From Owenia fusiformis (taxonomy: Eukaryota > Annelida > Polychaeta > Sabellida > Oweniidae), in the NCBI GenBank assembly GCA_903813345.2, contig CAIIXF020000008.1, positions 35,798,867 to 35,862,866 of the forward strand: DNA of 64,000 bases. Direction: 5' to 3'. The position numbers were made by a program, and so were the translations under genes. The notes under the pieces were generated by a model, which made no database searches, was not told the origin of the DNA, and was given only the letters and a program-made list of their open reading frames with translations. Position 1 is the first letter of the stretch; each line of letters begins with the position of its first letter. Positions 10,163 through 51,431 of the stretch are shown here, one piece after another.

Positions 10163-10218
10163 ACTAATGCTATGTTTTTGCATAAATTCCTGGGGATCAA
10201 TTTTTCCTTCCGCAAAGC
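10163..10218 (-). pseudogene. Extra copy of the zinc-finger protein C-terminus
   Basis: Read on the minus strand this gives GKIDPQEFMQKHSISF, nearly the same as the true C-terminus KIDPQEFMQKHNVSFG at 10274-10325. It lies about 60-110 bp beyond the stop codon and so is not translated with the gene. It is a local duplication of the last coding segment. Confidence 0.75.
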
Positions 10219-10273
10219 TGTTAAATTCTGCTTCTCTCTGTCTTAACAAACATTCCATTTTGTACACATTAAA

Positions 10274-11683
10274 TTAGCCAAAGCTAACATTATGTTTTTG
10301 CATAAATTCCTGAGGGTCAATTTTTTCCTTCAGTATCTCCTTGACTTTACTAAAATCACTGGATACATGAGTTTTTCCACTTGCAACGAGGGTATATGCT
10401 CGCTTCAGCTCATTTTTTGTATGGCGCATATTCCTCCTGAGAGCTTTGTTATATTTTGAAGGTATCTGTTTATACAGGCGACAGTATGTGCTCAGCTGAT
10501 CCTGAATCTCTTCCAACAGACTGGGGTTTTCTTGATTGGGTAGTGATTGTGCTTTGGTGATCTTTGCAACTGTTTTCACTGTCAACCCAAGCGTTTTCTT
10601 CTTACCATTTGTGTGTACATGTTGATCCAAGAGATGGCTCCTTGCATTGAAAAAATCGTTGATAAACTTTTTCTTGCAATACGGACACTCAAAGATGAAG
10701 ATTGAATCTTTTGATTCTTTGTAAGGTAGATGATCAGGGAACTTTTTGTAATGATTTTTTAGTATCTTCAGTTTTGGGAATTCTTGCTCACATTTAGTAC
10801 ATATTGGTGAAGTTCTATCGGCTTTAATGAGGCATGTCTGTTTCTGCTTCAGTGGGCATATGCTGTAATATCCCTGGACGCCACCATGTACATCTGTGTA
10901 GTGTTGGCCACATACAAATATGTCACTATAAACATAAAAGCACTCTGGGCAAACAACGACCAACGATTCACAGTTTGATGTTGTGTTTTTTATTGCGAGT
11001 TTATTACGCACGTTGAGAAGTATCCAATTTTCCTTAGTTTTACCTTCCCCTTTGCGAGCCTTGTATTGGCTTGCAGAAAAGTGTAGCTTTGTCTTTAAAT
11101 GCTGGTCCATTTCTTTGTAGTGTCTTGTCATGTGGTCACAAAAGTCGCATTTATATACATCACAAATTTTATGTGTTGGTCCATTTAGAGTGACATGTTC
11201 AGTGTCATTTTCTTCGAATGTTTCATCACTCTCTTCATCAGCATCATCGTCTTCTTTGAGCTCACCATCTTCTAAGTCTTTGGACCTTTTAGGATTTTTA
11301 TTCAGAGCCTCGGGTGTTATGACTTTTCTTTTGCGACTATCACTTTTTTCTGGTCCTTCAGCTTTGGTATTTGAAATAATAGAGATATTTTGACTGTTTG
11401 TGCCAGGTATACCATGATGAAAATGTTCACTATAATCCACTCCATCCCCCTTGTCCCAATTTCCATTATTATAAGTTGATGGTGCACCAGCTTTATATTT
11501 TGCAGCTTCCATCGCAGCACTGCCTTGTATACGCAAATCATGTATGAGTACGCCTCTTGCTGCTGCAAGGTCCTTCTTTGGATAAGGTCCAGAGTAACTC
11601 TCAGATATTCTCTCTGAGGGAATACTTGTGTCAAACTTTATATGTTTAGGTTTTTGTCGATTCCAGTTCTTGCGGAACGCCAT
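10274..11683 (-). CDS. C2H2 zinc-finger protein, uncharacterised
   Basis: The 469-residue coding exon starts at the ATG at 11683 (MAFRKNWNRQ). The ATG in frame upstream (11728) is rejected because a good acceptor, TTGTTTCAG, falls at 11692, just before the MAF start, so the upstream part is intron. The N-terminal 130 residues have no known domain. An acidic stretch (about 136-161, with EEDD-like runs) follows a basic KRKV/PKRSK patch that could be a nuclear signal. Four C2H2-like fingers follow: CDFC near 179, CPEC near 245, CTKC near 295 and CPYC near 333. The tail is lysine-rich and probably helical. It is likely nuclear and nucleic-acid binding. I do not recognise the orthologue group. It is divergent from ACSS1, which starts 1.8 kb away. 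Confidence 0.85.
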   Translation of the reverse strand: MAFRKNWNRQKPKHIKFDTSIPSERISESYSGPYPKKDLAAARGVLIHDLRIQGSAAMEAAKYKAGAPSTYNNGNWDKGDGVDYSEHFHHGIPGTNSQNISIISNTKAEGPEKSDSRKRKVITPEALNKNPKRSKDLEDGELKEDDDADEESDETFEENDTEHVTLNGPTHKICDVYKCDFCDHMTRHYKEMDQHLKTKLHFSASQYKARKGEGKTKENWILLNVRNKLAIKNTTSNCESLVVVCPECFYVYSDIFVCGQHYTDVHGGVQGYYSICPLKQKQTCLIKADRTSPICTKCEQEFPKLKILKNHYKKFPDHLPYKESKDSIFIFECPYCKKKFINDFFNARSHLLDQHVHTNGKKKTLGLTVKTVAKITKAQSLPNQENPSLLEEIQDQLSTYCRLYKQIPSKYNKALRRNMRHTKNELKRAYTLVASGKTHVSSDFSKVKEILKEKIDPQEFMQKHNVSFG

Positions 11684-11825
11684 GTTTATATCTGAAACAA
11701 ACAAGAAGATGTGTTTTTTAATTATCATTAAATAAAGCTTTTAATTTTGAAAATTAAGTTAATATAGTTGGATGAACAGACCTTTTTCATATTGAATGAA
11801 TTAATGCTTTTAGAGGGGGCAGAAA

Positions 11826-13441: not shown

Positions 13442-16400
13442 ATGGAGATGTTCAAACGTGGCTCACTTTTAGTGTCAAAATCACTATTTACGAGCGGCCG
13501 ATGCTTACAAAATGGTGTCAGGCGTGTGAAGAAGAAACAGTTGTACAATATTCGATATGCATCATCTGCACAAGTTGTTTTGACTTCTACTAAAATACCC
13601 GAATTTAATGGGGTTCAAAACCTCAAAACTCACCAAGATTTGCATGAATTCAGCTTGAAAAATCCTGAAGACTTTTGGGGCAAATTAGCAAGGAGCAGAC
13701 TGGAATGGTTTAGCGACTTTGATCGGGTGCAAGAGACTGATATGACAAAAGGACTTATTTCATGGTTCCTCAATGGAAAGCTTAATGTTTCAGGTACATA
13801 TGCCCTGTGGGGGAAGTTTGAAAAATATTTAAGGACAGGGTGCATGATGGGAAATTTTCTGCATTCCTCAATTGAGTCACATGTTATTTTTCAAACAAGA
13901 ATAACTCCTTCCCCACATTGTCTACATCTTTCAAGTTTGCACAAAGAGTGCAGTTATGTGCCTAGAAAAGCCTTGTGAGAAGGTTTGCTTTGTAAAATGT
14001 ATAAAAAATGAGAAAATACAGTGAAAAAAAATTCTGAAAATTTTCTGATTTTTTTCACGGAATTTTCTTATTTCTTATACACTTTATCAAAACATTCTTC
14101 TCACAATTCTTTTCTAGGCACATAAGTGCACTCTTTGTGCAAAACTGGAAGATATAGAAAATGTGGGGAAGGAGTGATTCTTGTTTGAAAAATAACATGT
14201 GACTCAATTGAGGAATGCAGAAAATTTCCCATCATGCACCCTGACCTTAACTCCACTATTATGGCCAATTATGGGTGTACCTGGATTCATCCATACAAAC
14301 TCTGAAATTGTTCATCATCTTTGATGAATTATGGTATGCGTGGATAATCCTGGATGTCCATGCTCCAGATATGGTACAAGTGACTGCGCTTGACTGCATT
14401 GTATGCTGTATCTTAGAATCATAATCATAGGCAATTTTAGAGGAATAGGCTATTAACATTTCTTCACAGTATTTAATTTAATTTGTATTATTCAATTTTA
14501 TTATGTCCCCACCACATAGTGTGGGGCCATATTGTCGGCCTAGGAGCGTCCGTCCGTCCGTCCGTCCGTCCGTCCGTCTGTCTGTCCGTCCATCTGTCCA
14601 TACGTCCGGGAGTTTTCTCCAAAACTGCTACAGATATCACCTTCAAATTTTCAGGGATAACTTATGAGTGCATACAGATGTGGATGAAAAAATTTTAACT
14701 CGATACCTACTTCCTGTCGGCCATTTTGAAGTCAAATGCTAAAATCCTTGTCTGCAAACTTTAAGAAAAACGGCTTCTCAGTTGCTTTTAAAACTTTAAC
14801 ATCTTGTTCAGCTCACTTCATTCTAGATCTGATTAGGTTTTGGACCTGTTAGCTCAGTCATGTCAGCCATTTTGAATGTCTTAAGAAAAGTGAGCACACG
14901 ATAATACTTTGTATAATATTGAATGGTGTTTTTGAGTTTTCATACTTTAACTATTTAGTAGCTTTATAAATAATTTCAGATCTACTTTGTTGTAAAAGCC
15001 TATGTTATTGTTAACAGTAGTAATATGTGATAATTTTGTAAGAAGAAATCAGCAAAAACACATAATCACTTTTTTATTGTCGGCCATTTTGGATTTTTCC
15101 GTCCTAAAATCTTGTCTGTGAAGTCTTGTCTACGTGTTTTCAGGTGAACCGTTTGGTGGATCAATTTCAAATTTTCAGGGATGATTCTTAGTATAAAAAT
15201 CTAGATCTGATTTGTTTTTTGGCATTCTGGGTAAATGTCAAGGCAGCCATTTTGGATTTTCTGTCCTAAAATCTTGTCTGTAAAGTCTTGTCTACGCGTT
15301 TTCGGGTGAACCGTTTGGTAGATCAATTTAAAATTTTCAGAGATGATTCTTAGTATGAAAATGTAGAACTGATTAGTTTTTTGGCATTCTGGGCAAATGT
15401 CAAGGCAGCCATTTTGGATTTTCTGTCCTAAAATCTTGTCTGTAAAGTCTTGTCTATGCATTTCCAGGTGAACCGTTCTGTAGATCAATTTCAAATTTTT
15501 AGGGATGATTCTTAGTATGAAAATCTAGATCTGATTAGTTTTTTGGCATTCTGGATAAATGTCAAGGCAGCCATTTTGGATTTTCCGTCTTAAAATCTTG
15601 CCTGTAAAGTCTTGTCTACGAGTTTTTAGGTGAACCGTTTGGTAGATCAATTTCAAATTTTCAGGGATGATTCTTAGTGTGAAAATCTACATCTGATTAG
15701 TGTTTTTGGCATTCTGTTTTCTAGTTAACTGTGTGACGGATCAATTAAAATTGTGTTGGTAAAGTCTTGTCTACTCATTTTCAGGATAACCATTTGATGG
15801 GATCACCCATTGGTGGGGACATTTTGTACACATTTGTGTTCTTGTAATAAATTACCTTATTTCTTCTTACAGTGAATTGTGTAGACCGCCACATGAGGGA
15901 AGATCCCAACAGAGTTGCTTTGCTTTGGGAGAAAGATGAGCCGGGATGCCATCAAGCTGTTACATACAAGTAATATTGATATTTTACAGTACAGCAAGTA
16001 AACACTTATGTACGAGAAATAAGTACTGCTTTACTGTAAAGTACATGTACTACACTGTAATTTGAGTATCAGGGAAATGATTGATAAGTGAATCAAAGGT
16101 ACAGTACAATGTTTAATATAACTGAAATTCATTGCATGCGATTTCCAGAGAGCTGTATGACATGATGAACAAGATTGGGAATACACTGAGGAGCCATGGG
16201 GTTAGGAAAGGAGACAGAGTGGCAATGTATATGCCAGTCTCACCCTATCTGGTAGCCTCAATGTTAGCCTGTGCCAGGATAGGAGCCATACACAATGTTA
16301 TATTCGCTGGGTTTAGTGCTGAAGCTTTGGCTACTAGGATCAATGATGGTAGGCTATTTACTATTTACCCTTACTTTACTCGGCATTGTTCGCTGTGTAT

Positions 16401-19400
16401 CGATGGGGTATTTGGGGGGTGCACCCCAGTTGTCCGAAACCCAGTTGTCCGAAACCCAGTTGTCCGAAACCCAGTTGTCCGAAAGCCAGTTGTCCGAAAC
16501 CCAGTTGTCCGAAACCCAGTTCTCCGAAACCCATTTTTCCGAAACCCAGTTCTCCGAAACCCAGTTGTCCGAAAAATTTAGTCATACTTTACCAGATAAA
16601 GGGGGACGCACCTCAAGCCAGTTTCATGTCATGTATTTGGCAAAATTAATGGCATGGATGCATTCTGATGTATAGATCTCTCTCTCACTTTGAATTGCAT
16701 CCATTACACGGCGTTACCAAAATGACAGGAACGGGGGATTTATTTTACATTGTGATTCTAAAAAAGGTCATCAAAACACAATATATATTACGGAACAGTT
16801 GATCTTATCTTATTCAATATATTTTATATAGGCAAAATAAAATGAAACATTTTGAAACCGATAAAATAAGTTAACGCATAAAACTTTAAGAATAAACAGT
16901 ACACATATTACGTTGTCAAAATGTTTCGTCGCATTTAATTTCTTAGTCTCTGTCTCTTATCAAATCGTAAAATGTAAAAGAACAAAACATTCTAAACGTA
17001 ATCACTTGGGATAAACTGGAAACGAAGACAGGCTGTCCTCGTATCAAATTGGATGTTCTCCAATTCGCAAGAAGTTTCATTTTCGCCATGTACTCACTTC
17101 ATCTTTTTGAATTTAATCTCTATTTCTCGAACAGAGTACCTAAATGAAGAATAATTTTTGGTTTCAAAAGATGTACACGACGCCAACTTTACTAAATAAA
17201 CGCCTAGTAGGCTCATTTGCGTGAAAAGCCGGTAGTTGTATTTATACACTCCCCTCCATAAGTTTGGCAACCTTAGCTCCCCCATTGAACTAGGTGTTAA
17301 AGCCTCTTTACGTTTGAATTTTTATTTACGATGAAATAGCGTATAATATTGATGGAAACGTAACTTTACTTTATTTCCAATACCTCCTAATTTTCTAGAT
17401 TTTTTTCCTCCATAACAAGAGATCGAAAATTGAGGATAAATTTGATGAATTTTTTAAAATCGTCATTCCCGTATAATCCAAGGGGAAATAGAGAGTTCGG
17501 GGCAAATCAGAATCTTTTCAGTAAAAGATTCAGCAAAATTTTTTTGGTATAAAAAATTGAATTGTCTGACTTTTTTGTTCACTAAGTTTTAATTTATTTG
17601 ATGAATACTAAATTTATAGCGCTTCAAAGTCATTTTTGAAAATAATTTTTCGACTCCTGTGTTATTTCAATGGGAGAGTTTTCTTGAAAACCAATTTTGA
17701 CTTTAAAGCCCTGTAACTTTGTTGAACCTGAAGAAACATATCAATTCTTTGTTAAATAAAGTTAGCAAATTCAATTGCCTGCCTTACTCATATTTTGCAA
17801 GGACTTGGATGGATGGATATTCTGTCATATGACGTGCGGTAAATCTACCATTTCCCATTGGATGACATGGGAATGACGATTTTCAAAAAGTCATCAAATT
17901 TATCATCAATTTTCGACCTATTGTAATTTAGGAAAAAAATTGATAAAATTTGAAGGTATTGGAAATAAAGTCAAGTTACGTTTCCATCAATATTATAAGT
18001 TATTTCATCGCCGGTTAAGTAAATAAAAGTTCAACTTATGGAGGTGAGTGTATCTTCTATTGACGGAGGATAATGTTTAAAGGGGCTACAGTGCCTGTGC
18101 GTAGGAAAACTACGCTTGCCTTGGGGACTCCTACGGCGTATCCAGTTTTTCACACGCCGCAGGGTCGCCGTATAGAAATTATAACTCGGAGTTATAATAT
18201 TTGTTCATTTCTGAGGTCCCGTAGAAATCAACTGGCTCAACAAGATTGAATCATTATTTGTCAATGTTTCACGATCACTTTTCATTTGATATTACATCCT
18301 AGCACTATGAATAACATTTATAAATTGCCCTGATGTAAATAAAATGAAAAAAGTATTATTTATCAACAGAAATTTAAAATTCACCGTGCGGCTGCCGTGG
18401 GAAGTCCTATTGATCCTCATAAATTATCCCCTACTCATACTAAGTTAAAATGTGCCCATCGTGCGCCTAATGCTAATGGCGCTGTCACACTGGTCGTGTC
18501 CCGTCCCGTCTCTCAACGTACAAAGCATTCAGGCCAAAATTTAAGGAATAAGCTATAGTGAGCTGTTTCAGAACGCCGTCTGAAACGCCTTCTGATTCTG
18601 AATCCACTGTATTCATTGGACGGTGGGAGGTCGTCCATGCTTACACTTTCAGTATCTGACCCTATTATCACACCAAACTAGTTCTGACTACGCTCTCGAG
18701 AACGGGCTTAAACTGTGTGGACGGATTGGAAGTACTTAGAACCGTTTGGGGTCTACTTGCCTACTCGAAAGGGTAGTTCCAGAATTTCCACGTGGTCATC
18801 ACTTTCTGCAATCACGCGGTCTTCGACCGTTAATTGGAATTTTTGACCTACCAGATGCTTGAAAATCAAGGATTGCGAGTCTGATATTGCACCGTTTTTC
18901 TTCCATTATACCATTAAAAGCAAAACAAAATTGCATTTCTGCCAGTGCATTTCTTTATTGTAAAGAGTCTCTCGTTCTAGCAGCATTTTGGTCCCCACTC
19001 CCCAGCTGTTAGAAGGCCTTCTTACAGCTGGGGACCAAAATTACGCTGGAAGTAGGAACTCTGTTTAAGATAATAACGTACCATCAGAAAGAGATTTTTG
19101 TCATGCTTTGAATGGAACAAGTTTGAAGAAAAACGGTGCAGTATGAGACTCGTAATTGATTTTCAAATATCCGGTAGGTCAAAAATTCAAATTAACGGTC
19201 GAAGTTAGGACCGCGTGGCGACGTGGGGCAAAGGTTGAACTGTCTCAGAATGTATTGGGAACGAGGTAGAAATAAAGAATTCATATGAACGAGTCATGCA
19301 AGATACTAAAGAGATACAAATGCATTTTGATACTCAGTTTTTGGGCTATTAAAACTCCCTGTCTGCATTGAGTATAGTTATTTATTGTCCGGTGTATAAT

Positions 19401-22400: not shown

Positions 22401-25400
22401 GGGTCCACATTTTCAGTAAATTTTCCCAAATCTTGAAATAATGGGCCCAAACTTTCAAATAATTAGTCCAATTAAGTTTTTAATAATTGGTCCAAATTCT
22501 CAACAAACAGATCTTCCCTTGATTCAATCTGATGTGAGTTCTGCTATTGTAAATATTGTATGTGGCTTTCCTTTATCCTCAAGTATGAAATATTCACCTT
22601 TTTTGTACATAGTTACTTTGACCTGCATATCGACATGTTAACATCTATATTAATGTCATTTTTATGAGAATATGCATCGTTTATTTTTTATTTATGATCT
22701 AAAGATTTTACCTCAACATTTCTTTAACCATTAACAATTGTTTATAACTGGTACAACTTGTAACTATTTCTCTTATAAATCAGAATAATTGGCTAATAAA
22801 AAGACAGCTTTTTCAAATGGCTATTTGACCTGGGGGTTATAAGTAAAGTTGTATTTCTAAGATCATGTTTAGATTTACCCTAAGAATCTATGAGCTTCTT
22901 CAAAGATAGCCTGGACTTATCTCAGGTTGACTGGGGTTATCTAAAAAGACTCTATTTTTAGTACAGTATAAAGAGAATACCCTTACATATTTTGGCACGA
23001 ATTGTATAAGATAACTTTTTCAATTTTGGAAACACCTTCCTTGAATTATATAGAGATCTACAAAATTAAATGTTCATTTTGTAATTGGTAATTTTCTGTA
23101 ATTTTTTGAAAGCAAAATATAGATTTTTTTGGGAGGAGGGTATGTTTGGATAATTTCGGACATATTAGTTCGTTTACTTTGAATATTGCTCAGAGATTCT
23201 ACCTTTCATGCCTTTAAGGTCAAGTTTTTGTATATTTATCTCTCTAGATAGGAAAACCATGAGTTCAACATGTATTAGTACTGCTATAAGTGCTATAAGT
23301 TTTGAAATCATTTTGACCTTTAACTCTTTAGTCAGATTTAAGAACCCTTAACACTTATGGCTTATGCTTGTGTTATGCAAAACTGAAGTTTATTTGTTTC
23401 CTGATGTCACTTGAAGGGTTATGATACTACCTTTGCTTGATTTTAAAATTTAAAAAAAGTCATTATTCAAAACTCACTAACTAACTAATACTTTGCAACA
23501 TGCATGTAGGTAAAAGGTTTGATTGATGTCTGGGTGTCTAGGTGGGTGGGCATAAATCATGTCTTCAAAATTCCATCAAAACCACGTATCCATTAACTTG
23601 AAATGATTACAGATGCAAGAACAGACTGTAACAAAATCTAATTTAGGCATGCTGGGTAAATTATGTGGTGGGCATTTTGGATTTTTGATAAAAAAGTATA
23701 ATATTTATATTTAATTATTTATCACCTGCCTTTGTTGGAATTTATCATCCCCCATGTTTTTATAATTCATCATCCCCCGTGTTTTTATAATTCATCATCC
23801 CCCATGTTTTTATAATTCATCATTCCCCTTGCAATTTGTAGGTCGTTACTGGGAGACAGTTGAGCGATTGAAGATGACCCAGATATATGTGGCCCCAACT
23901 GCTGTCAGGCTATTGCTCAAATCTGGGAATAGCTTTGTCACTAAATATGACAGGTCTTCACTCAGGTTGCTGGGGTGTGGTAAGTTTGAAATAACTTTGT
24001 CACTAGATCTGACAGGTCTTCACTCAGGTTGCTAGGCTGTGGTAAGTTTGAAAAAGTTTTGTCACTAAATACGACAGGTCTTCACTCAGGTTGCTGGGCT
24101 GTGGCAGGTTTGAAATAGCTTTGTCACTAAATATGACAGGTTTTCACTCAGGTTGCTGGGCTGTTGTAAGTTTGAAATAACTTTGTCACTAGATATGACA
24201 GGTCTTCACTCAGGTTGCTGGGCTGTGGTAAGTTTGAAATAACTTTGTCACTAGATCTGACAGGTCTTCACTCAGGTTGCTAGACTGTGGTAAGTTTGAA
24301 AAAGTTTTGTCACTAAATATGACAGGTCTTTACTCAGGTTGCTGGGCTGTGGTAAGTTTGAAATAACTTTGTCACTAAATATGACAGGTCTTCACTCAGG
24401 TTGCTGGGCTGTGGTAAGTTTGAAATAGCTTTGTCACTAAATATGATGACAGGTCTTCACTCAGGTTGCTGGGCTGTGGTAAGTTTGAAATAGCTTTGTC
24501 ACTAAATATGATGACAGGTCTTCACTCAGGTTGCTAGGCTGTGGTAAGTTTGAAAAAGTTTTGTCACTAAATATAAAGACAGGTCTTCACTCAGGTTGCT
24601 GGGCTGTGGTAAGTTTGAAATAGTTTTGTCACTAAATATGACAGGTCTTCACTCAGGTTGCTGGGCTGTGGTGAGTATGAAATGGCTTTGTCACTAAATA
24701 TGACAGGTCATCACTCAGGTTGCTGGGCTGTGGTAAGTTTGAAATAGTTTTGTCACTAAATATGATGACAGGTCTTCACTCAGGTTGCTGGGCTGTGGTA
24801 AGTTTGAAATAGCTTTGTCACTAAATATGATGACAGGTCTTCACTCAGGTTGCTGGGCTGTGGTAAGTTTGAAATAACTTTGTCACTAGATATGACAGGT
24901 CTTCACTCAGGTTGCCGGGTTGTGGTGAGTATGAAATAGCTTTGTCACTAAAAACGACAGGTCTTCACTCAGGTTGCTGGGCTGTGGTAAGTTTGAAATA
25001 GTTTTGTCACTAAATATGATGACAGGTCTTCACTCAGGTTGCTGGGCTGTGGTAGGTTTGAAATAGCTTTGTCACTAAATATGACAGGTCTTCACTCAGG
25101 TTGCTGGGCTGTGGTAAGTTTGAAATAGTTTTGTCACTAAATATGACAGGTCTTCACTCAGGTTGCTGGGCTGTGGTAAGTTTGAAATAGTTTTGCCACT
25201 AAATATGACAGGTCTTCACTCAGGTTGCTGGGCTGTGGTAAGTTTGAAATAGTTTTGTCACTAAATATGACAGGTCTTCACTCAGGTTGCTGGGCTGTGG
25301 TAAGTTTGAAATAGTTTTGTCACTTAATATGATGACAGGTCTTCACTCAGGTTGCTGGGCTGTAATAGGTTTGAAATAGCTTTGTCACTAAATATGACAG

Positions 25401-28400
25401 GTCTTCACTCAGGTTGCTGGGCTGTGGTAAGTTTGAAATAGTTTTGTCACTAAATATGACAGGTCTTCACTCAGGTTGCTGGGCTGTGGTAAGTTTGAAA
25501 TAGTTTTGTCACTAAATATGACAGGTCTTCACTCAGGTTGCTGGGCTGTGGTAAGTTTGAAATAGTTTTGCCACTAAATATGACAGGTCTTCACTCAGGT
25601 TGCTAGGCTGTGGTAAGTTGGAAAGATAGTTTTGTCACTAAATATGACAGGTCTCCACTCAGGTTGCTTGGTAATTTGAAATACATTGTAGCTTTTGCTA
25701 CTAGCGTTTAAAATCGTATTGTCTACTATAGGACAGAAAACCATTTAAGCCATAAAATCCATTAGGATCTGTCAGGTTTGTAACTGAGCTGCTTTGTAAT
25801 AAGCTCATTTCTGATGGAGACCGTATTCTGATTGGATTGATTTTATATTTTGTAGTTGGTGAGCCATTGAACCATGAAGCATTTGAATGGTACCATGATG
25901 TAGTAGGGGAGGGGAGGTGTCCATTGGTTGACACATGGTGGCAAACAGGTATAGCACTATTATACTTATTTTCAAAACTGCACTGTAAACTTTGCAGTTT
26001 TGCACCAATTGAGTTTGATCAGATTAGTATATTAAATGAAGTATATCAAAGTGAAATCAAAAATGTTAAAAGCATTTAAATGAGCAAGGGCTGCAACAGT
26101 TTTTGGCTTACATAGTGACCCTATGGTTCCCCTGTCTGTCAATCCATCTGTCTGACAGTCCGTCTATTTATTCATCCTTCTGTCCATGTAGTGGATAAAT
26201 GAAATCCAAAATATCACAATCTTCGCAATGCACAATTTTGTATCATTTATAACTGTTCCTAAATCACCATATGAGCCAACCAAATGGTGTCAAAATATTA
26301 TGTGTTTTCTGTGTTCCCCCTAGTATTCATTATATTCTTCCAAACAACTTGACGAATATATTATTGGAAGGTAATGGAAGCTAGTGGCATTTTCATGGTA
26401 AATGCTAATACATGTATATCTACAATGATGATATGATAACCATCAGACTTAATGACAGTCGCAGCTCTTCTTACCACTGTGAGCTGAAAATGAAAGAATA
26501 TGTGCCATAATATCAGAGGATGTTTTTAGTGAATCAATATGATGTAGTCTGAGTGAGAGAAACAAATTTTGTACAAAAATATTTTTTCTTCTTTTCACTA
26601 CCTTTATTTTACTAAACAGGACGTTTGTATATAATGAAATACTCTTTGGACATTTTCAGAGACTGGTGGTATTTGTATCAGTCCCCGTCCCTCAGCCCCT
26701 GGGGCAGAAATAAAGCCAGCTATGCCCATGAGACCATTCTTCGGCATTGACCCAGTACTGGTAGATGAAAAGGTAAATCATAACAGAAGTGATGACTTAT
26801 TGATATTATAGTCGGCAATGTGGCTGGTGTTTAGCCTTTGGCTTTTGGTGGAGGTCAGTGGGTGTCTGTAATGTATGGGAGGTGGTGACATTCTGCATGT
26901 GAATGCCTTGTTATTATTGATTACAATATAGTCATCAGTATTTGCCACTTTTGAGTTCTGTTCTATTGCATACATGCAAAGAATACAAACACAATGAAAT
27001 GCTGAGCCACTAGTTTGATGTCTATCAAGATAATGTAAAACATGGGATAGGGTAAAAATAGGGTATAAAACCCTATAGATACCCCAATAAACCCCAACCA
27101 GTTAAGCAATGAATTATGGTCACCTTCAATTGATACTACTGAGTTTGATATTTGTATAGAAGAAGCTACCGAAGTACCATGATGATCATATTCATGACAT
27201 ACATGTTACTAAATAAAAGCACAAATATATCAAATGAGAAATATATCAGAAATAAATTAGGAATAGAAATAAAATTGGAAATATAAAGACTGCTGTAAAG
27301 GTGAATTGTAAATATTGTTTTAGGGCAATGAACTCGAAGGGAATGACAAGTATGGAGCCTTGTGTATACGATCCCCTTGGCCCGGAATGGCTAGGACCTT
27401 ATATGGCAATCATGATCGTTTCTTGGAAACATACTTTAAGCCGTACCCTGGTAAGTGTAGGATTTATGCCGAAATTCCCCAAACACAATTTGAAATCTCA
27501 TTCACCTCATTCAGTCATCTTCACAAAAAGTTATGATTGTAATGGTCATTAACTCAACACATATGGCGTCACTCAATATCATGACAGGGGCATGCAAAGC
27601 CATAATCTTAAGTCAGCAAGGCAAAAGGCTTAAAGGAGGTATATTTTTGGGCTTTGTATAAAAAAACCTCCTACCTCATACCCACGTATGTTGGACATGA
27701 TACAGTTATTGAAGGGTTCAATTTTAAAGATTTTTAAATCTCAAAATAGCTCTAATTATTAACATTTCTATAATTCTGTATAATTCTGCTGTAGTAGCAA
27801 CTTGCTAAAGGGTCGTTACAAATGCATCTATAATTGTGTTTGAAGGTCTATACTTTTCTGGTGATGGGGCACATAGACATGCTGATGGTTACTACCAGAT
27901 TACAGGTAGAATGGATGATGTCATCAATGTTAGCGGGCACAGACTTGGAACTGCTGAAATAGAAGATGCAATGGTAGGTGAATCCTTACAGTAAATGCTT
28001 TGATTAATACCATTGCGGGATGAACATACATATTAAAATCAGAAATTACAAAATGGAAGAGACACTAGAATAACTACGAATACAAAATGGCATGTGCAAT
28101 GAAACCTGTGAAATGGAACACCTCTGGAAGTGGAACACTTTTCATAGTCCCAAGACCAATTGATTTTATGTTAAATCAACCTCTATAAGTGGAACATCTC
28201 TGAAGTTAAATACTTGGAACTGAGGTACCAAAGGTGTTCCACTTAAGCTACGTTCACACCAACGGCGCTTTGATGGCGCTTTAATGCGACGTGCAAAGCC
28301 GCTTCGCACACCACGTTAAAGCGCCATCAAAGCGCCGTTGGTGTGAACGTAGCTTTAGACAGGTTCTACTGTAGTTAGATATGCTGACAATAGATATGCT

Positions 28401-29829
28401 GTATTATTCCAGGATGAGCACCCTATGGTTGCAGAGACTGCTGTTGTTGGTTTCCCTCATGATATCAAAGGAGAAGGTATGTAATATTTTGTTCAAGAGT
28501 TTTACTATTTTAGGTGCATTAACTTTCAAAATATTAAGAATTCTCAGTCCATTGTTCTCTTATTATGAGCCTGGCTAAGAAATGTCCAAAACTGCAAGGC
28601 AGTTGTCAATCAAGAATCTCTGTTGGCTTGGATTGATGCAACTGATGGGGACGTCTTTAATTTTAATGTCATCACCAAGAGATGATGATGACATATTGCA
28701 ATTGCCACAATCAGCATTTTGTATGTTTATATAATTCCAGGAGTCTTTGTGTTGGGCATGGGATTACATTATATTGTTTAATATTCTCAATGAGATCATT
28801 TAATGTTTATATAATTCCAGGAGTCTTTGTGTTGGGCATGGGATTACATTATATTGTTTAATATTCTCAATGAGATCATTTAATGTTTATATAATTCCAG
28901 GAGTCTTTGTGTTGGGCATGGGATTACATTATATTGTTTAATATTCTCAATGAAATCATTTAATGTTTATATAATTCCCGGAGTCTATGTGTCGGGCATG
29001 GGATTACAATCCATTATATTGTTTAATATTCTCAATGAAATCATTTGATGTCTATATAATTCCAGGGGTTTATGCATATGTTACCTTGATGGATGAGATT
29101 CAAGAGCCTGAAGCGCAGATTATACAAGAGCTTAAAGAGATGGTCAAGAAACAAATTGCCTCATATGCAGTACCCGAAATAGTCCAGGTATTTCATCATA
29201 TATTTTTATACAAATCATAGAGTCTAAGACAAGATGTTCCAATAGTTCTCATCAAAGATCAAGACCTCTTTCTCTCCTTTTCTCTTACTTATAAATGTCA
29301 GTTTTTGTTTTCACTTTAGTAAAGAAAAGAAATTACTTTCAAAGAAATGTTAAGTTATATTCACACACGGCATTTCATTGCCTAACATGCCTAATTAAAC
29401 AATTTTTTTTTGTGAAAATCTTGAATTTCTTGTAAAAATAGCCTGCTCCTCCTAATTGACAAAATTAGGTGATAATATCCCATGACACGGCAACTAATTC
29501 TTTGGGTTTAAAGCCGAATCTTTTCCAGGTTCCCTCTTTACAGTTCATATTTATTTTTACATTTAGCCATGGAGTTTTTTAATTTTTTCTCTTCTGGGTC
29601 AAGTTAAAGACCTACTGTAACCTACAAATAATGTTTTGTTACGTTTATTCAGATTGCTCCTGGACTTCCAAAGACAAGATCTGGTAAAATTATGCGCAGA
29701 ATTCTCCGAAATGTTGCAGCGAATAAATCTGATCAATTAGGAGATATATCAACATTAGCTGATCCTTCGGTGGTTGCATCGATTGTCAAAAATCATGAGG
29801 ATGTCATGAAAATTCGAAACGGAAAATGA
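13442..29829 (+). CDS. ACSS1: Acetyl-CoA synthetase, mitochondrial type (complete, 14 exons)
   Basis: Makes acetyl-CoA from acetate, ATP and CoA via acetyl-AMP. Exons: 13442-13793, 15873-15969, 16149-16348, 20778-20953, 21405-21557, 21976-22123, 23842-23979, 25856-25948, 26660-26772, 27324-27450, 27846-27973, 28413-28476, 29066-29187, 29653-29829. All introns are GT-AG, phases match, and the total is 2088 nt, 695 residues (human ACSS1 has 689). Residues 1-45 are basic and Ser/Arg-rich with few acids, as in a mitochondrial presequence. The ACAS N-terminal domain ([10 protein letters not shown]) follows. The AMP-binding loop [10 protein letters not shown] is at 300-309. The acetate-pocket motif DTWWQTETGG is at 447-456. 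The [17 protein letters not shown] hinge follows. The catalytic lysine is K649 in [11 protein letters not shown]. Everything needed for activity is present. Intron 3 holds a 3.9 kb transposon and intron 7 a large minisatellite. ACSS2 is less likely because of the presequence. Confidence 0.95.
13833..14246. mobile_element. piggyBac-type MITE, 414 bp palindrome
   Basis: The element begins 39 bp after ACSS1 exon 1. The ends GGACAGGGTGCATGATGGG and GGTCAGGGTGCATGATGGG (inverted) open arms of about 200 bp that are almost perfectly complementary. TTAA lies at both sides (13829-13832, 14247-14250), the signature of piggyBac insertion. No coding capacity; reading through exon 1 into it gives a spurious 178-codon frame. 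Confidence 0.88.
14503..15822. mobile_element. Element with ATGTCCCCACCA ends and internal tandem repeats
   Basis: The 12 bp ends are exact inverted repeats. A (GTCC)n run is at 14548-14600. From about 15080 to 15780 there are roughly four copies of a 175 bp unit carrying GGCAGCCATTTTGGATTTT, TCTTGTCTGTAAAGTCTTG and GGTGAACCGTTTGGTAGATC. It ends 50 bp before the acceptor of ACSS1 exon 2. The ends resemble the ATGTCACCACC family seen elsewhere in the window (for example 34765-34862). Confidence 0.6.
16424..16574 (+). repeat. 15 bp tandem array, left terminal array of the 3.94 kb element
   Basis: Ten units of CCCAGTTGTCCGAAA with single-base variants such as AGTTCTCC and ATTTTTCC. All six frames stay open through it because the unit is a multiple of three, which explains the PVVRNP-like repetitive reading frames here. 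Confidence 0.9.
17247..18050. mobile_element. Mariner-type MITE, 804 bp, nested
   Basis: Ends CACTCCCCTCCATAAGTT and CACTCACCTCCATAAGTT (inverted) open arms about 230 bp long that pair through TATAATATTGATGGAAACGT and AATCGTCATTCCC. TA lies outside both ends (17245-17246, 18051-18052). It is inserted within the 3.94 kb element. Confidence 0.82.
18813..19217. mobile_element. Hairpin MITE, about 400 bp, nested
   Basis: Arms beginning CACGCGGTC and TTCGACCGTTAATT pair over nearly 200 bp and meet at about 19015 in a hairpin with CCCCAGCTGTTAGAAGGCC at its apex. Weaker pairing extends outward to about 18770 and 19240. The outer end and target duplication are unclear. Confidence 0.7.
20258..20350 (-). 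repeat. 15 bp tandem array, right terminal array of the 3.94 kb element
   Basis: Six units of TTTCGGACAACTGGG or TTTCGGAGAACTGGG, the reverse complement of the array at 16424-16574. Confidence 0.9.
22290..22500. repeat. Degenerate GGGCCCAAACTTTC repeats
   Basis: Intron 6 carries several imperfect copies of an approximately 30 bp phrase (aataatgggcccaaactttcaa). It is similar in type to the block at 500-620. Short frames through it are not genes. Confidence 0.45.
23735..23828. repeat. 25 bp tandem array abutting the exon 7 acceptor
   Basis: About 3.7 units of TATAATTCATCATCCCCCATG type end 13 bp before ACSS1 exon 7. The CCCC-rich last unit may contribute to the polypyrimidine tract. Confidence 0.75.
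23931..25675 (+). repeat. Minisatellite made from the end of ACSS1 exon 7 plus its splice donor
   Basis: About 28 tandem copies of a 61-66 bp unit. Each contains TTTGTCACTAAATATGACAG, TCTTCACTCAGGTTGCTGGG and CTGTGGTAAGTTTGAAATAG. The first copy is the genuine exon 7 end, encoding [16 protein letters not shown], with its GTAAGT donor at 23980. The later copies fill intron 7. Some carry a 3 bp insertion (ATGATGACAG). Nearly all keep the GTAAGT donor. Reading from exon 7 into the next copy meets a stop, so use of a downstream donor would truncate the protein. Confidence 0.95.
28098..28372. mobile_element. Copy of the CAGTAAAACCTGT repeat family, split by another MITE
   Basis: AATGAAACCTGTGAAATGG at the left and ACAGGTTCTACTGTA at the right are degenerate inverted ends of a family found at least six more times here (29844, 33136, 50130, 53440, 54435, 57305). 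The internal phrase GTGGAACACCTCTG is typical. A 109 bp hairpin is inserted at 28246-28354. Confidence 0.65.
28246..28354. mobile_element. Harbinger-type hairpin MITE, 109 bp
   Basis: AGCTACGTTCACACCAACGG opens an almost perfect hairpin that closes with its reverse complement. TTA flanks both sides (28243-28245, 28355-28357), as for PIF/Harbinger insertions. It contains an inner GCGCTTTAA/TTAAAGCGC stem. Confidence 0.82.
28725..29065 (+). repeat. Tandem duplication of the ACSS1 exon 13 acceptor
   Basis: Units of 80, 80, 80 and 85 bp each contain TATATAATTCCAG followed by about 12 nt resembling the start of exon 13 (GGAGTCTTTGTG in copies, GGGTTTATGCAT in the real exon at 29066). The fourth copy has lost the AG (TTCCCG). 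Using a copy acceptor would bring an in-frame TAA after about 13 codons, so only the last site gives a functional protein. Confidence 0.88.
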
Positions 29830-29843
29830 AATTAAGAAGAAGA

Positions 29844-36652: not shown

Positions 36653-37456
36653 ATGAGATTTTCTGGAAAGTGCGCAATTGTTACTGGTTCGAGTAGTGGC
36701 ATTGGCAAAGCAACTGCAATCTTATTGGCCAAGGAGGGAGCAAGTGTTTTGATACATGGCCGAGATTCAACAACCATCAAAGAAACTGTTGCTGAATGCA
36801 AAAAGGTTGCTGTCGATGATGCAAAGTTTCCTTATGTCCAAGGGGATATTGAAGATGATGATGTGCTGAAGAGCATTCATGAAACTGCCATTAAAGCATT
36901 TGACAAGATTGATATCTTGGTAAATAATGCAGGATATGGTATATTTCATGATTTAACATCAGGATCACTGCAGTTGTTTGATAACCTGGTTAAAGTCCTA
37001 TTGCGGGCACCAATCCATCTGTCTCAAATGTGTTTGCCCGAATTGAAACAAAGCAATGGAAATATCGTAAATATTTCAAGTATGGTTGGATGCAAAGTAA
37101 CAGACCAGATGCCTTTCTACAGCATATCTAAAGCTGGGATGAACATGTTCACACAATGTGCAGCATTGGAGTTTGGAGGCCAAGGAGTTCGTGTCAATGC
37201 TGTTTGTCCAGGCTTAGTGAAAACTCCAGCCATTAAGAAGGCAGGTGTTCCAGAAGATGCAGAGGCAGAACATTGCTCCAATGTAGCAAGATGTGTCCCA
37301 ATAGGTAAAATTGGAACAATGGATGAAACTGCCAAATTGATTGCATTCCTGGCATCTGATGATGTGTCAATGATGAATGGTGCATGTGTTGTTCAAGATG
37401 GCGGACATTCACTGATTGGACTTGATAAGGCAACATTGGAAAATGCTGCCAAATAA
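36653..37456 (+). CDS. Classical short-chain dehydrogenase/reductase (intronless)
   Basis: A single 267-residue frame. The NAD(P)-binding motif TGSSSGIG is at residues 11-18, NNAG at 91-94, the catalytic Ser at 142/143 (NISSMVG), and YSISK at 156-160 with the active-site Tyr and Lys. PGLVKTP follows at 186-192, and the C-terminal INGACVVQDGG-like segment is MNGACVVQDGG. All residues needed for a Rossmann-fold oxidoreductase are present. R37 after the second strand (HGRD) suggests NADP(H) preference, which is an inference. The substrate is unknown; the protein resembles the many invertebrate 3-oxoacyl-reductase-like SDRs. There is no signal peptide. The lack of introns may mean retroposition or an ancient intronless gene. 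The last 16 codons are the founding unit of a downstream minisatellite. Confidence 0.92.
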   Translation: MRFSGKCAIVTGSSSGIGKATAILLAKEGASVLIHGRDSTTIKETVAECKKVAVDDAKFPYVQGDIEDDDVLKSIHETAIKAFDKIDILVNNAGYGIFHDLTSGSLQLFDNLVKVLLRAPIHLSQMCLPELKQSNGNIVNISSMVGCKVTDQMPFYSISKAGMNMFTQCAALEFGGQGVRVNAVCPGLVKTPAIKKAGVPEDAEAEHCSNVARCVPIGKIGTMDETAKLIAFLASDDVSMMNGACVVQDGGHSLIGLDKATLENAAK

Positions 37457-38050
37457 TATTCACTTATTAGATTTGTTAATGCAATATTAGACAATGTACA
37501 CAAATAACATTTGCTGATTAGACTTGATAGTGTAATATAATACAATGTAGACCAGTAACATTTGCTGTTTAGACTGGATAATGCAATATTAGACAATGTA
37601 GCCAAGTAACATTCGCTGATTAAAATGGATAATGCAATATCAAACATTGTAGCCAAGTAACATTTGGTGATTAGACTGAAAAATGCAATATTAGACAATG
37701 TAGCCACGTAACATTTGCTGATTAGACTGGATAATGCAATTTCGGACAACGTAGCCAAGTAACATTTGCTGATAAAACTAGATAATGCAATATTTGGCCC
37801 AACATTAGACAATGTAGCCGGCCAAGTAACATTTGCTGTTTAGACTGGATAATGCAATAATAGACATTGTAGCCAAGTAACATTTGCTGATTCTAGACTG
37901 AAAAATGCAATATTAGACAATGTAGCCACGTAACATTTGCTGATTAGACTGGATAATGCAATATTGGACAACGTAGCCAAGTTACATTTGCTGACTTGTT
38001 CATGTAATATTAGACATTGTAGCCAAGTCATTTACTGTTTGACTGGATAA
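37407..38050 (+). repeat. 51 bp minisatellite derived from the SDR coding end
   Basis: Unit 1 (37407-37457) is the last part of the CDS, encoding HSLIGLDKATLENAAK and the stop. Unit 2 starts 51 bp later with ATTCACTTATTAGATTTG. About 12 units follow, drifting to the form AAGTAACATTTGCTGATTAG with ACTGGATAATGCAATATTAG. The repetitive minus-strand frame across it (SSLISKCYLATLSNIAL) is an artefact of the 51 bp period. Confidence 0.9.
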
Positions 38051-38090
38051 AGATAATGCAATATTAAACTTCAGTAAAGCAAAGTATAAT

Positions 38091-38580
38091 GTACAATTGA
38101 CCTACCAATCTATTCCTAATTACAATCTCAAATACAATATCTCCCAAAAGATTCACAATATGTTATAAATCGATGAAGTTATAATGGGCTCAAAGTGCAA
38201 ATATAGGTGAAAATGTTTAAATTCTCCCAAATAATAAGAATGGTAACCATCCTTATAGATGTGGAAGCCCCGCCTCTAGTGACTTTTTGACTATATGACT
38301 ATAGGAGTTTTAATAGGGTCACTAGTCTAGAGTCTGGGGTCGTGACAAATCTCAGCTCAGATATATCAATAAAGCCCCAGAGGCACATTAATGCACCTAC
38401 CATTCTTATAGAAAAAGAATACATTATTGTGAAAATATTTAGTTTTTCTGAAATAAAGTGTGCACTTTGGGGATTTTTAGAAAATATACATGGCAAGGAA
38501 TGACATGAGCCAGAAATATTCTAAAATTGAAACAATTTTTTGTTTGTCTAGAATCTGATTCTCTCTTAAATTCAACCTGT
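38091..38580 (+). repeat. Local duplication, copy 1 (copy 2 at 38969-39246)
   Basis: Shared phrases include ACAATTGACCTACCAATCTA, AATAATAAGAATGGTAACCA, and GTTCTAAAATTGAAACAATT (ATTCTAAAAT in this copy). Copy 1 holds an extra 140 bp insertion (38259-38398) that copy 2 lacks. Confidence 0.8.
38259..38398 (+). mobile_element. SINE-like insertion with 13 bp duplication
   Basis: The insert is flanked by ACCATCCTTATAG (38246-38258) and ACCATTCTTATAG (38399-38411). It carries CTCTAGTGACTTTTTGACTA, GACAAATCTCAG and a GAGGCACATTAATGCACCT end. Related sequences lie at 47115-47208 (plus) and 49669-49750 (minus). A long target duplication without terminal inverted repeats suggests retroposition. No internal promoter boxes could be confirmed. 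Confidence 0.6.
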
Positions 38581-38662
38581 ACCACATCAGGGTTTTACTA
38601 GAAAATCTTGCATCAGCCAAAATGAATAAAAACTAAACTGTTGAAGATTATAATTTTAACAG

Positions 38663-44200: not shown

Positions 44201-47200
44201 AACACTAGCTATAACTTGCCTGGCTTTATTTTGCAAATATTGATGCCATTTGATCAAGAACTTTTGAATCCATCCCCTGACATCCAAGAAAAGTGATTAT
44301 CAAATGCATTGCAATTTAACAACATGTGTAATTCAAAGTAATTTAGATATTAAAAAAAATGACCCACACTGATCAAAATTAATCAAAGAAATACATGTGT
44401 ATCTCCTTCTACTGGAATATATTTGAAGATTATTCATACCCTTCACTTGCACGGCCAAAGATTTCGATTTTAAGGCTTTAGACTTACGTTCAAGTCAAAA
44501 TAAAGATAGCTCTTTAAAGATATCTGAGAAATGCCAACATAGCTAACCTTTAACGAATAGCTAACCATCCAGGCTGCAACAGAACTAAATATAAGTCAGT
44601 CTTCAAGTATGCCAAAGTATAGGCAATAATCTCTTGCTGTAAGCTCAAATGATAGAAACGAGCACTATTAAAAGACTAAAAATAAGAAAACAAGTAATAA
44701 ATAACTCTCTCAACTATCTGTTTTCCCATTATACAGGGAAGAACATTAACAATCTCAAGTTTTCACACCCACTTCAAAGCATTCCAAACTGTTTGCGGCA
44801 TTTTTAGCTTTAGTGTAGAAATATTACCAAGAACCAAACCCTACTTAGTTTGGATATATTTGTGTCTAGCAACAAGCCCTTGTTTGATTGGATTATTCAC
44901 CTTATTATTAAATCTTGCAAATACTAGCTATAATACTTCGGTAACAACTAGCAAAAATATCATTATAACGTTATCATTATAACGAGTAGACCTTTCCGAA
45001 TAGCTTGCAATAGATCTCAATGTTTCAAGTATCCAAAAGAAAATAGGAGCATTTATGGTCAAACAGTCCCATGAACATGTAAAAAGTGTTCAGCTCATGG
45101 GGCTTTTTCTGGTCCAATAAAGTATAATATCTCTGACATGTTTCATTGGCAATTCACCAAACCAAAGCGATATGTATAACTTTGAAAGAGTCATGATTGA
45201 TTAATTTCTAAAACAACATTGATAGACATAAATCTGTAAAGCAATTAAAAAAACTACAATAACTTCAAATGACTGAATTTCATTGACCTTTACATATATA
45301 TTACCATTGTATCAAAAAATGCCGACCTAACATATCCAAATGTGTAATCACCAGAGTAACCAACAAAACAATTAATATGACATCTGCAATCTGAACCTAC
45401 TCTGGGCATTATTGAAAAACCAAAGAACTGATTGTCTTTGAAAATAACTGCAACTGCGCAAAAGTGTATCCACCCCTCACACACCAAATTTGGCAACCAG
45501 ACCCATAGAAAAATTAATGCATTATATCATTGTGACGCCATCTCTTTGTGCTTTAAATGTTTACATATATGCATAAAACCATAAATTGAATGATTGATTG
45601 AAAAAAAACATTATGCAAATTTCAAAACCAAAATTGATGTATGCCCAGACAAAATCAAAAATCATATTACCAGCCATATCAGCAAATGTCTTAAGGGTTG
45701 ATGTCTTAATGCAAATGTCTCTCAGGATGGTGCTTCACTTCACTCTTGTGGTAGTCAGAGATGATGGGGTCGAAGGCGTCTTGGGATAAATCATAGGCCT
45801 CAGGGTCACACGCGTGAATACCAGTTCCGCCATATCAACAAATGTCTTAAGGGGTGATGTCTTAATGCAAATGTCTCTCAGTATGGTGCTTCACTTCACT
45901 CTTGAGGTAGCCAGCGATGATGGGGTCGAAGGCGTATCGGAATACATCGTAGGTCTCGAGGGTCACCGGCGTGAATACCAGTCCTAGAATCAAGGTTCTC
46001 CACTCCTGATCTTATACAATCAGCAAGTGTTCCGTTCAATTTTGTCTCCGAATTCTTGTATTTGTCCCACACCGCTGGGGAGATATAGCTCTTTAAATGA
46101 GACGTGTAGTCCTTAGCAGCGCTCAGCTTAAAAGAGACGTGTAGTCCTTGGTAGCGTTCAGCTTGTCCCATAATTGATCAGCATGATACAGCCATAATTG
46201 TTGATAAAAGAATACAAATATCCTGTATATGAAAAGTGAAGCAGACGATTCCAGCTTGTAATAATTATCGTTAATACAGCAAACTGTATGATAAACAGTA
46301 AATCCAAGGTTCTATCCCAGAAGGGTGTTCCAGTGTTGTCAAAAGTAGAAAAGTTGTAGTTCTATTATTAATTGTCAATCCCAGATTCAAAAGAACAATG
46401 AAGTTTATTTTTACAATCCATTTAATGATAATATTTATTTGTGAAATCTATACTATGCGTCTGAGGTGTTGAACCTAAGACGCATAGCAGAGAACTAAGT
46501 AGAATATATTTAGACACACTTTTAGCCACTAAAGCAATGACGTAAGCAGACAGCATGTACATACATGGAAATACAAGTGCTATAAAGTGCTACATTATGA
46601 GTATAAACACAATCTTGGGTTCTTCCGGGTCAACTGTAAGATTTGAGTTATAATGAAAGAATAAACAATGTTGAACAAATGCACACCAGAATAGCCTGAC
46701 AACGGTAAAGTCAGATACCGTTGTCACACATGGCGGACATAACCGTCGCTTCAAATCTTCAATCACTTGGTCCTCGTTTCATGAGACTTTATCGTCGCTA
46801 ATTCTGTGCATGTACTCTTGTGATAGAGTGTCATATGAAATCCCAATTTCGATCAAATTTGGTCGTGAATCGCCACAATATAGCGTCTTCGATATCGTCA
46901 ATGACAACGGAGTCTGAATTTGGGATAATTTACAAAGACAACGGCAACGAGGATTGTTCCTTAATTGCTCAGATTATCGTCGAAAATTTGATTTTTTATT
47001 CTTGGAATGTTTCTAAATTGAGAATATTACCTCATAAAGGTTCAAATAATACACATTAAATAACTCTTTAGATATAACATGGTGGTCTAGCGCAGGATAG
47101 AGGGGGCTGCCCTACCCATGGTGACTTTGACTATTGGAGTTTAATAGTGTCGCTAGTGACAAATCTCAGTTATAGAAATAAATGCCCAGAGGTGCATTAA

Positions 47201-48890: not shown

Positions 48891-51321
48891 TCAAACATTA
48901 ACATGCTTATTTTGATATGAAGGATATTTTTTAATCTGATACTTTTGGATACAAAAAGTCACAATATGGAAAAGTCCTTTGAGGACTTACATTTAAATAC
49001 AGTATATATCCTCCAAGCAGGGGTCCAGACATCATTCACTATGAACTGCTGAGTTTGGAGGGTGATGTTGCAAGGACATTCTCTTGAGAATGAGAATAAA
49101 CAATTGTACGTACAGCAGATGTTACATACACCTGCATCTACATGGGACACTGACTCTAATGGAGGAGAGAGATCTTGAAAATTAAAGGCTTATCACTTAT
49201 CTGTAGCTGTGTAAAGGCTGCTCAAAATTAATCATGTGTTAAATGTCCCCTCCAACCTAAGGTTTAGGCAATATTTCGAAACAAACAAATTGCTGAGATT
49301 TATGACTTAAATCCATTCAAAATGTCAACTGAAACTTAACAATTGTGTTCTAATATATCTAAGATCATATTGTTATGAAGAGTTCCTAGACTGTTAACTA
49401 CATGTATTTTACCAACAAAGAAAATACACTTCCCTCCATTTGTGGCAACTCGAAGTCATCTTTTTGTCACTAACCAAAGCCTGTTTAAGTTTAGCAATTT
49501 ATAATTCATCAAATGTTTAATAAACATCTGAAATATTGTAATAAAGAATAATTTTAGATTATATCAACATGGCGTGACAATCTCTAATGTGGATGGAAAC
49601 TTCAGTTTGCCAAAATTATGGTTGAGAGTGTACAATTCCTTAAGATGGGCAGTAGCCTTTGGTTACTAGCCTTGTGTTTATATATCTGAGATTTGTCACT
49701 ATTAAAACTCCTATACTGTATAGTCAAAAAGTCACTAGAGACAGGGCTTCAACTTCTACTAACCTTGTAAACTGATGTCCAGCACAAATATGTTCAAAAG
49801 TTTGCAAATACATGTAGACAGAAAACATAATTCAGATTGTTCCGAGATTCAATGTATGTTAATTTATTTCTCTTTAAACTGCAATAAAGTTTTGTACATG
49901 TATGTATATGAATATATTGGAAATATATAATTTTATATGGAATATATAAAATTGCATCTTATGTATGTTATACACAGCCAATCTCCAACAGTACCGTTCG
50001 ATACTGTTTTGACTACGTACCGAGAAATGTGGTATCGTATGGTACAGTACACTACAACAGTACTGTACGGTACTGTAAACACGGCACCCTGTGGCACCAG
50101 AGATATCAGAGTGTGGATTGGGTGCACAGTAAAACCTGTGAAGTGGAACAACTCTATAAGTGAAGCACTTTTGTAAGTCCAGCTATCATTACTTAATGTA
50201 AAAAATGAGCCTCATAAGGTGGAACACCTTCCGAGTGAAACAATATCTCGAGGAACCAATTTGTACCACTTACACACCATGTACACACTTACTTATTGTA
50301 TCTATATGCAATTGTTTACCATACATATAAAAGTATTACTTGAAATGAGATCAATAAAGGAAAATGATAAAAACAAATATTGAATGCTATGTTAGTTGGA
50401 GATCTAAATTGTTAATATCTGAAGTTAACTAACTTTACACATGTACATGGTTAGAACTATTTGTCATTAATATCAGTATATAATGAAATATTCATATTCT
50501 ATATTCCCCGAGGCTTCAAATAAATAAATGAGGTATATAACAGTATAACTATAGAATGGATGCACTGAACATGTATGTAACAGTCATCTTTGTACAATAA
50601 TTTACAATTTGTGCAGTATAGTTACAGCAAGTCTCTGTTAGACCATGCATTTGTAAATGTCTTGTAACACTAAACAGGGCAACTTCAGCCCATACACTAT
50701 TTGATCTTTGACTTAAATTTAGCCTCAGTCACATTTGCTCTACAGCAGCATACAGCAACCGTAGCTTCACAAAATGGATGTAGAAAATCTACATCGTACT
50801 GCTTATATCCTTATATTTTATGCTGCATATTTCTCGATTTTGGGAAGATACAGGCTCTGTACAGTTGCCATAGATCAAACGTAACTAAGGCATATTACAT
50901 GATAATTAATGTGTATATTTACAAAAGGAAAGGTACTCCCGTTTCCTGATGCCTGATGAATAATTTATTCTGTTTGGTCTAAATACATCATTCTGATTGA
51001 TCATTTTGTGGTTGACACTAATTATTGGAGACCATCAATGTATCAATAATGCGACTCTTCGACTTTTTAATGCACCACTAATTCAAATATAACCATGCCC
51101 CTGTGATATCATAAGTGTAACACATTTGTAAGTGTAACACATTTGTAAGTCTGTAAGTGTAACAGCTTTGTAACTGAAATTCTTTCCAATGTCCAATGAC
51201 CAACTGACTTAAAGTTCAAAATGGTCCACTGTAAGCGAAACACCTCCCAAGTCGAACACTTTTTAGAGATACGAAGGTGTTCCACAAACACATGTTTTAT
51301 TGTAGAGTAGTAGTATTGATG
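48891..51321. other. Intergenic stretch between GON7 and CRY-DASH ends
   Basis: Contains a SINE-like relative (49669-49750, minus), a GTACCGTACAGTAC-rich inverted block (49985-50090), CAGTAAAACCTGT-family copies (50130-50300 and 51110-51305) and a palindromic-family copy (50711-50890). No gene is seen. Confidence 0.5.
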
Positions 51322-51431
51322 AGAACACTATGTTGAACTCTTAAGAACATTATGTTGAACTCTTAGGAACATTATGTTGAACTCTTAGGAACATTATGTT
51401 GAACTCTTAGGAACATTATGTTGAACTCTTA
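51322..51431. repeat. 22 bp tandem array ending on the CRY-DASH stop codon
   Basis: Five units of GGAACATTATGTTGAACTCT-TA. The final TTA (51429-51431) is the reverse complement of the TAA stop, so every unit begins, on the coding strand, with TAAGAGTTCAACATAATG. Confidence 0.9.

Follow-up and report, generated by a model that had tools for sequence, protein, structure and literature searches.

Tandem arrays straddling splice boundaries and stop codons of four genes in an Owenia fusiformis window: a known type of repeat and a suggestive excess

Why do tandem repeats lie across the edges of coding sequence, and is duplication aimed at those edges? This question is raised by a 64-kb stretch of the Owenia fusiformis genome (the window), in which an earlier note described five local repeats, at five coding boundaries of four genes, and held that they were seeded exactly at exon edges and had expanded outward, possibly as a process acting throughout the genome. 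We completed the gene models by splice-site joining within the window. The ACSS1 model comprises 14 exons (13442-29829, forward strand), and its spliced, full-length and open 692-residue protein matched acetate--CoA ligase (TIGR02188, E 2.1e-275); the CRY-DASH model has 12 exons (59235-51429, reverse strand; TIGR02765, E 1.2e-183). The zinc-finger ORF gave sub-threshold Pfam matches throughout, the best being PF23107 at 20.6 bits against a cut-off of 30. The coding map further included a DUF4508 gene (103.4 bits) and a GON7-like ORF that scored 18.9 bits against a cut-off of 25. In total, the map holds 30 coding exons with 60 coding boundaries, six of which are stops, and 6.4 kb of coding sequence; it was built from coding exons only, with untranslated exons left out. 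Edge counts used 36654 as the SDR start (36653 in the model) and 10275 as the zinc-finger end (10274 in the model), which left the set of edge-touching arrays unchanged. No Rfam match was obtained across the whole window at gathering thresholds. A 219-residue Asp/Glu-rich ORF (43445-44101), which had no Pfam match, holds a weak 51-bp internal repeat.

All five repeats were recovered where the earlier note had placed them, by TRF, a lag scan, a gapped scan and copy alignment, and in every case the added copies extend away from the coding sequence, leaving the gene intact (Table 1). The five repeats passed the gapped-scan threshold, at which four first-order Markov random sequences yielded no pair, and a chance origin is rejected on this basis.

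Table 1. Repeat arrays and coding features of the window, in window coordinates
Feature	Position	Strand	Evidence
120-bp two-copy duplication covering the C-terminal end of the zinc-finger gene with its stop	10160..10331	-	gapped scan
25-bp array ending 10 bases before ACSS1 exon 7; left out of the edge overlaps	23739..23831	+	TRF, lag scan
ACSS1 exon 7, its last 52 bases being the founding part of the 62-bp array	23842..23979	+	gene model; TIGR02188
62/65-bp array that starts in the 3' part of exon 7 and continues through intron 7 sequence	23928..25671	+	TRF, lag scan, copy alignment
80-bp array reaching across the exon 13 acceptor to cover 9 coding bases	28723..29074	+	TRF, lag scan
SDR coding sequence, single exon	36653..37456	+	Pfam adh_short_C2, E 2.9e-53; NCBIfam short-chain dehydrogenase models
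51-bp array whose founding unit is the SDR 3' coding end (16 codons plus stop)	37405..38050	+	TRF, lag scan
Broken arginine-kinase fragment with two tandem duplications	45673..46164	-	Pfam ATP-gua_PtransN (PF02807), E 9.9e-15
22-bp array of five units, unit 1 opening with the CRY-DASH stop (51429-51431)	51322..51431	-	TRF, lag scan

Two of the five repeats lie at splice sites of ACSS1. The array at exon 7, for which about 28 copies had been reported, contains 28, and its first copy consists of the last 52 coding bases together with the donor and the start of the intron. Copy alignment revealed that the GTAAGT donor is kept in 22 of the 28 copies, that, with gaps counted, individual copies have between 0 and 14 alignment columns departing from the consensus, and that blocks of variants are common to several copies, a pattern that block-wise exchange would fit. 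The peptide encoded by exon 7 can be aligned to solved acetyl-CoA synthetases from other organisms; the coding copy is therefore likely the source of the array and the intron copies probably derived from it. At exon 13, which starts at 29066, the acceptor segment occurs five times at a spacing of 80 to 85 bp, the four extra copies described previously lying upstream of the true acceptor, and the similarity extends nine coding bases into the exon. Two inverted repeats were also observed in ACSS1 introns, one in intron 1 (13829-14250; 202-nt arms, 89% complementary, 18 nt apart) and one in intron 11 (28242-28358; 58-nt arms, 90% complementary, 1 nt apart).

The remaining three repeats lie at stop codons. 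The 51-bp SDR unit corresponds to the last 16 codons plus the stop, as the earlier note had proposed, and six subsequent units, when compared with the coding copy, showed 69-76% identity. In CRY-DASH, the five 22-bp units start from the TAA stop, which is the whole of the coding overlap (3 bases), the preceding base being mismatched. The zinc-finger gene carries one extra copy of its C-terminus at a spacing of 120 bp, with 57 coding bases included; this duplication was absent from the loci of the first, ungapped scan and passed the gapped scan. No intron is modelled at these three arrays, and in these models they do not span an exon-intron boundary.

Since one of the amphioxus repeats discussed below appears to have been aberrantly assembled in a genome draft, according to the amphioxus globin paper, some of the present arrays might be collapsed or over-expanded by assembly, and their copy number could be wrong for this reason. 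As an account of the arrays themselves, assembly error is highly improbable, given that the divergence among the 62-bp copies and between the SDR units and their coding copy is unlike the simple mis-joining of one sequence.

TEs were considered as the source of the five arrays and rejected after the array regions had been matched elsewhere in the window. Neither the zinc-finger region nor the sequence preceding the exon 13 array or following the exon 7 array had a match elsewhere in the window; the sequence preceding the exon 7 array had two weak ones (44 bp at 77%, and 17 bp). The SDR 3' region did have matches, all four of which concern 38089-38295, outside the array proper; those of the CRY-DASH 3' region concern 51111-51292, again outside the array proper, in the 8 of 11 matches listed.

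We subsequently compared the five repeats with the other arrays of the window. The list, compiled by hand from the TRF, ungapped and gapped scans and including weak short arrays, contains 28 arrays, of which five lie on a coding boundary and 23, some of them weak, make no contact with a modelled coding edge, indicating that tandem duplication is common in this window anyway. Five random sequences gave top scores of up to 16 in the ungapped scan, and we therefore regard arrays scoring 17 to 18.5 as weak. None of the 28 arrays is fully contained in modelled coding sequence (6.4 kb), where rotation placed a mean of 1.4, and 55 of the 60 coding boundaries are without such an array.

Eight arrays were labelled TE-linked by our own call. 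A 52-bp array at 29845-30203, which starts about 15 bases past the ACSS1 stop (TRF start 29867), has 30 matches outside itself, among which the eight listed include single occurrences at 28097-28215 and 50126-50168. A 56-bp array in a CRY-DASH intron (53477-53940) has nine outside matches, the eight listed including a single copy at 54474-54550. Both received the label because their sequences recur elsewhere in the window. For a 162-bp array and a CGTC array, the label follows from end sequences read by eye, with two weak outside matches, and for the repeats at 59509 and 61209 it follows only from their position as flanks of a reverse-transcriptase ORF. That ORF belongs to a remnant (59509-61546; RVT_1 at 21.3 bits against a cut-off of 29.6) with paired repeats about 165 bp apart on both sides. 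Two arrays with a 15-bp unit, at 16425 and 20258, match one another as inverted copies with ~94-97% identity. They bound, in opposed orientation, a 3.9-kb stretch of ACSS1 intron 3 (16416-20355) that, judged by sequence, looks like a foldback-type element with tandem-repeat ends. Exact-pattern scans with parts of the 52-bp, 62-bp and 15-bp units gave no match in viral contigs in any case, and a scan of genome contigs with part of the 52-bp unit gave none either.

If the boundary itself seeded duplication, through splice signals or stop-codon context, the coding share of the unit should be constant. By contrast, the coding part amounts to 52 of 62 bases at exon 7, 9 of 80 at exon 13, 52 for the 51-bp unit of SDR, 3 of 22 in CRY-DASH and 57 of 120 in the zinc-finger gene. 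The resulting shares (0.84, 0.11, 1.0, 0.14 and 0.47) keep no fixed register, are spread over the range and are compatible with a uniform distribution (KS P 0.80, with low power at n=5). No sequence common to donor, acceptor and stop is visible, and no DNA or splicing signal obviously links stops with splice sites. Stops, moreover, account for three of the five arrays at edges but only 6 of the 60 modelled boundaries, and most boundaries have no array. The claim of seeding exactly at exon edges thus fails in two respects, since a stop codon, where three of the five arrays are located, is no exon edge, and since the coding part of the unit varies. Although the occurrence at five boundaries in four genes is above the selection-filtered expectation given below, seeding by the boundary itself is very unlikely, and targeting of duplication to coding edges is not supported.

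What donor, acceptor and stop cases have in common is that one complete coding copy is left, which is a property of selection rather than of mutation. A duplication that straddles a single coding boundary spares such a copy, so that random seeding followed by purifying selection explains both the direction of growth and much of the placement. The earlier note had argued that selection explains the direction and not the placement of the arrays; the first part is consistent with all five cases, whereas the second does not hold to that extent.

We therefore asked how many arrays would be expected on coding boundaries under such a filter. All P values refer to one window that was picked after the pattern had been noticed, and the TE labels are our own. 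When the final arrays were placed at random, with coding overlap beyond one unit forbidden (Null 1), 5 of 28 arrays on a boundary compared with 1.30 expected (P 0.0073). Placing the founding unit only (Null 2) raised the expectation to 1.34 (P 0.0081), a second P value from the founding-unit null being 0.0007. With the first scan alone, which leaves out the zinc finger, the count was 4 of 26 against 1.06 expected (P 0.018), and the first-scan sets ranged from P 0.0003 to 0.018 depending on the set. Omission of the eight TE-linked arrays gave 5 of 20 against 0.79 (P 0.0007), restriction to strong arrays gave 5 of 14 against 0.98 (P 0.0016), and restriction to arrays both strong and not TE-linked gave 5 of 7 against 0.48 (P printed as 0.0000). 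With a minimum coding overlap of 10 bases, the excess shrank to 3 of 28 against 1.05 (P 0.082). Across sets and cut-offs, the selection-filtered nulls thus spanned P <0.0001 to 0.08. Rotation of the exon map, which applies no selection filter (Null 3), placed a mean of 4.0 arrays on an edge, with a probability of 0.35 for five or more. The excess at coding boundaries is accordingly suggestive and depends on the null.

A purely random seed leaves part of this excess (5 of 28 against ~1.3) unexplained. It could be accounted for if exons and their surroundings were more prone to tandem duplication than other DNA, owing for instance to transcription, base composition or breaks in exonic DNA, with selection then keeping the duplications that straddle an edge; the excess would be regional and not aimed at boundaries. 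This alternative draws on the excess over the filtered null and on the seven strong arrays that are not TE-linked, five of which straddle a coding edge while a sixth lies in the arginine-kinase fragment. The numbers are small, they come from a window chosen for the pattern, and the excess weakens to P 0.08 at the cut-off of at least 10 coding bases and to P 0.35 under plain rotation. We consider this alternative rather unlikely; a regional excess in exonic DNA is possible but unproven.

The arginine-kinase fragment offers a control, in that it is kinase-derived sequence broken by a frameshift and stops that can still be aligned to solved arginine kinases. It contains tandem duplications of 35 and 156 bp, the former not a multiple of three. 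By our reading of the alignment, the 35-bp copy corresponds to approximately residues 17-28 of the solved kinases and the 156-bp unit starts near residue 64, its far end running past the alignment; the upstream copy is beyond detectable similarity and had no Pfam match. Among ten ORFs tested around the fragment, none matched the catalytic domain of a kinase; a match to the N-terminal domain in one ORF stayed under the cut-off (22.1 against 25.7 bits), and two ORFs gave chance-level matches to other families. Together with the lack of arrays inside intact coding sequence (0 of 28), these duplications are consistent with random seeding and purifying selection. The control is a weak one, because both duplications might themselves have crossed former exon edges, and if they did, they would count for a higher rate of duplication in exonic DNA.

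Collectively, we favour the reading that the five arrays are locally born minisatellites whose seeding was not aimed at coding edges and which selection has filtered, with a probability of about 0.62. What we observe are the repeats with their units, reading frames that stay intact and an overlap that varies; from these we infer the following molecular process, selection and history. A segment of 22-120 bp would give rise to a tandem copy of itself through some general mechanism, for which slippage, template switching and unequal exchange are candidates, and its position would be random relative to coding edges. Duplications in the coding interior would be purged by selection, and those straddling a boundary tolerated, as the gene retains a complete coding copy together with its splice site or stop. 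Later rounds may then have added further copies on the non-coding side.

A broader extension of these data, which we regard as distinctly unlikely, is that this lineage has several-fold more tandem duplication in transcribed exonic DNA, such that a sizeable share of its genes carries arrays of this type at splice sites and stops. Each array would then contribute as many as dozens of surplus splice sites or 3' UTR units, from which new introns and extended 3' ends could be built. If the excess were true genome-wide, it would make a still-active source of intron gain and 3'-end growth accessible to counting, and would allow a test of whether transcribed exons are hot spots of tandem duplication. 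The arginine-kinase fragment suggests that mutation and selection could be separated by comparing exons with pseudogenes whose old intron positions are known.

The observation is confirmed, and its type is already known, with cases like those of ACSS1, at splice boundaries, described in amphioxus; the window adds two splice-boundary and three stop-codon cases. In a literature search no equivalent of minisatellites at stop codons was recognised by title, and we do not claim the class to be unpublished. Intron gain offers one comparison: an excerpted review describes how tandem duplication of an exonic segment with a splice-like AGGT yields a new intron (PMC3443670). The 62-bp unit likewise holds a donor, and an AGGT in its exon part; in the excerpt the outcome is a new intron, whereas here an existing intron is extended or the array follows a stop codon. 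Potato reportedly provides a case of intron gain by tandem genomic duplication. In humans, the excerpted report describes variable internal tandem repeats, with an average unit of 30 bp, at exon-intron boundaries of genes in segmental duplications (PMC2812944). These resemble the present arrays in being minisatellites at exon-intron boundaries; there, the repeats are reported to create new introns or to make exons longer and were identified from a comparison of paralogues with transcripts, whereas our data are genomic sequence.

The closest likeness is to the amphioxus 'mirages', defined as tandem duplications that span intron-exon boundaries. As far as the portions of the papers used here extend, mirages occur in Adh3 and two globin genes, at 5' and 3' boundaries, where regular splicing is undisturbed, one globin gene differs in copy number or length between haplotypes, and the repeats are proposed as a source of new introns; the PGBD5 paper adds repeats of 60 and 108 bp in PGBD5 and cites troponin C (PMC3087553, PMC3902484). 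As in those descriptions, the ACSS1 units, with 52 and 9 coding bases, run across a splice boundary, both 5' and 3' cases occur, and the gene is otherwise intact, mirage units measuring 10 to 160 bp. Regular splicing and haplotype polymorphism were reported for amphioxus, whereas here a single genomic sequence is at hand. Its G+C content of ~35% is lower than that of amphioxus (~41%). Three of our five arrays, those of SDR, CRY-DASH and the zinc-finger gene, lie at stop codons, a class absent from the amphioxus descriptions in these portions, and their units span no modelled exon-intron boundary. By our reading, these three would have arisen by the same process and fall outside the definition of a mirage, whereas the two ACSS1 arrays, on the features of their sequence, fit what the amphioxus literature calls mirages.
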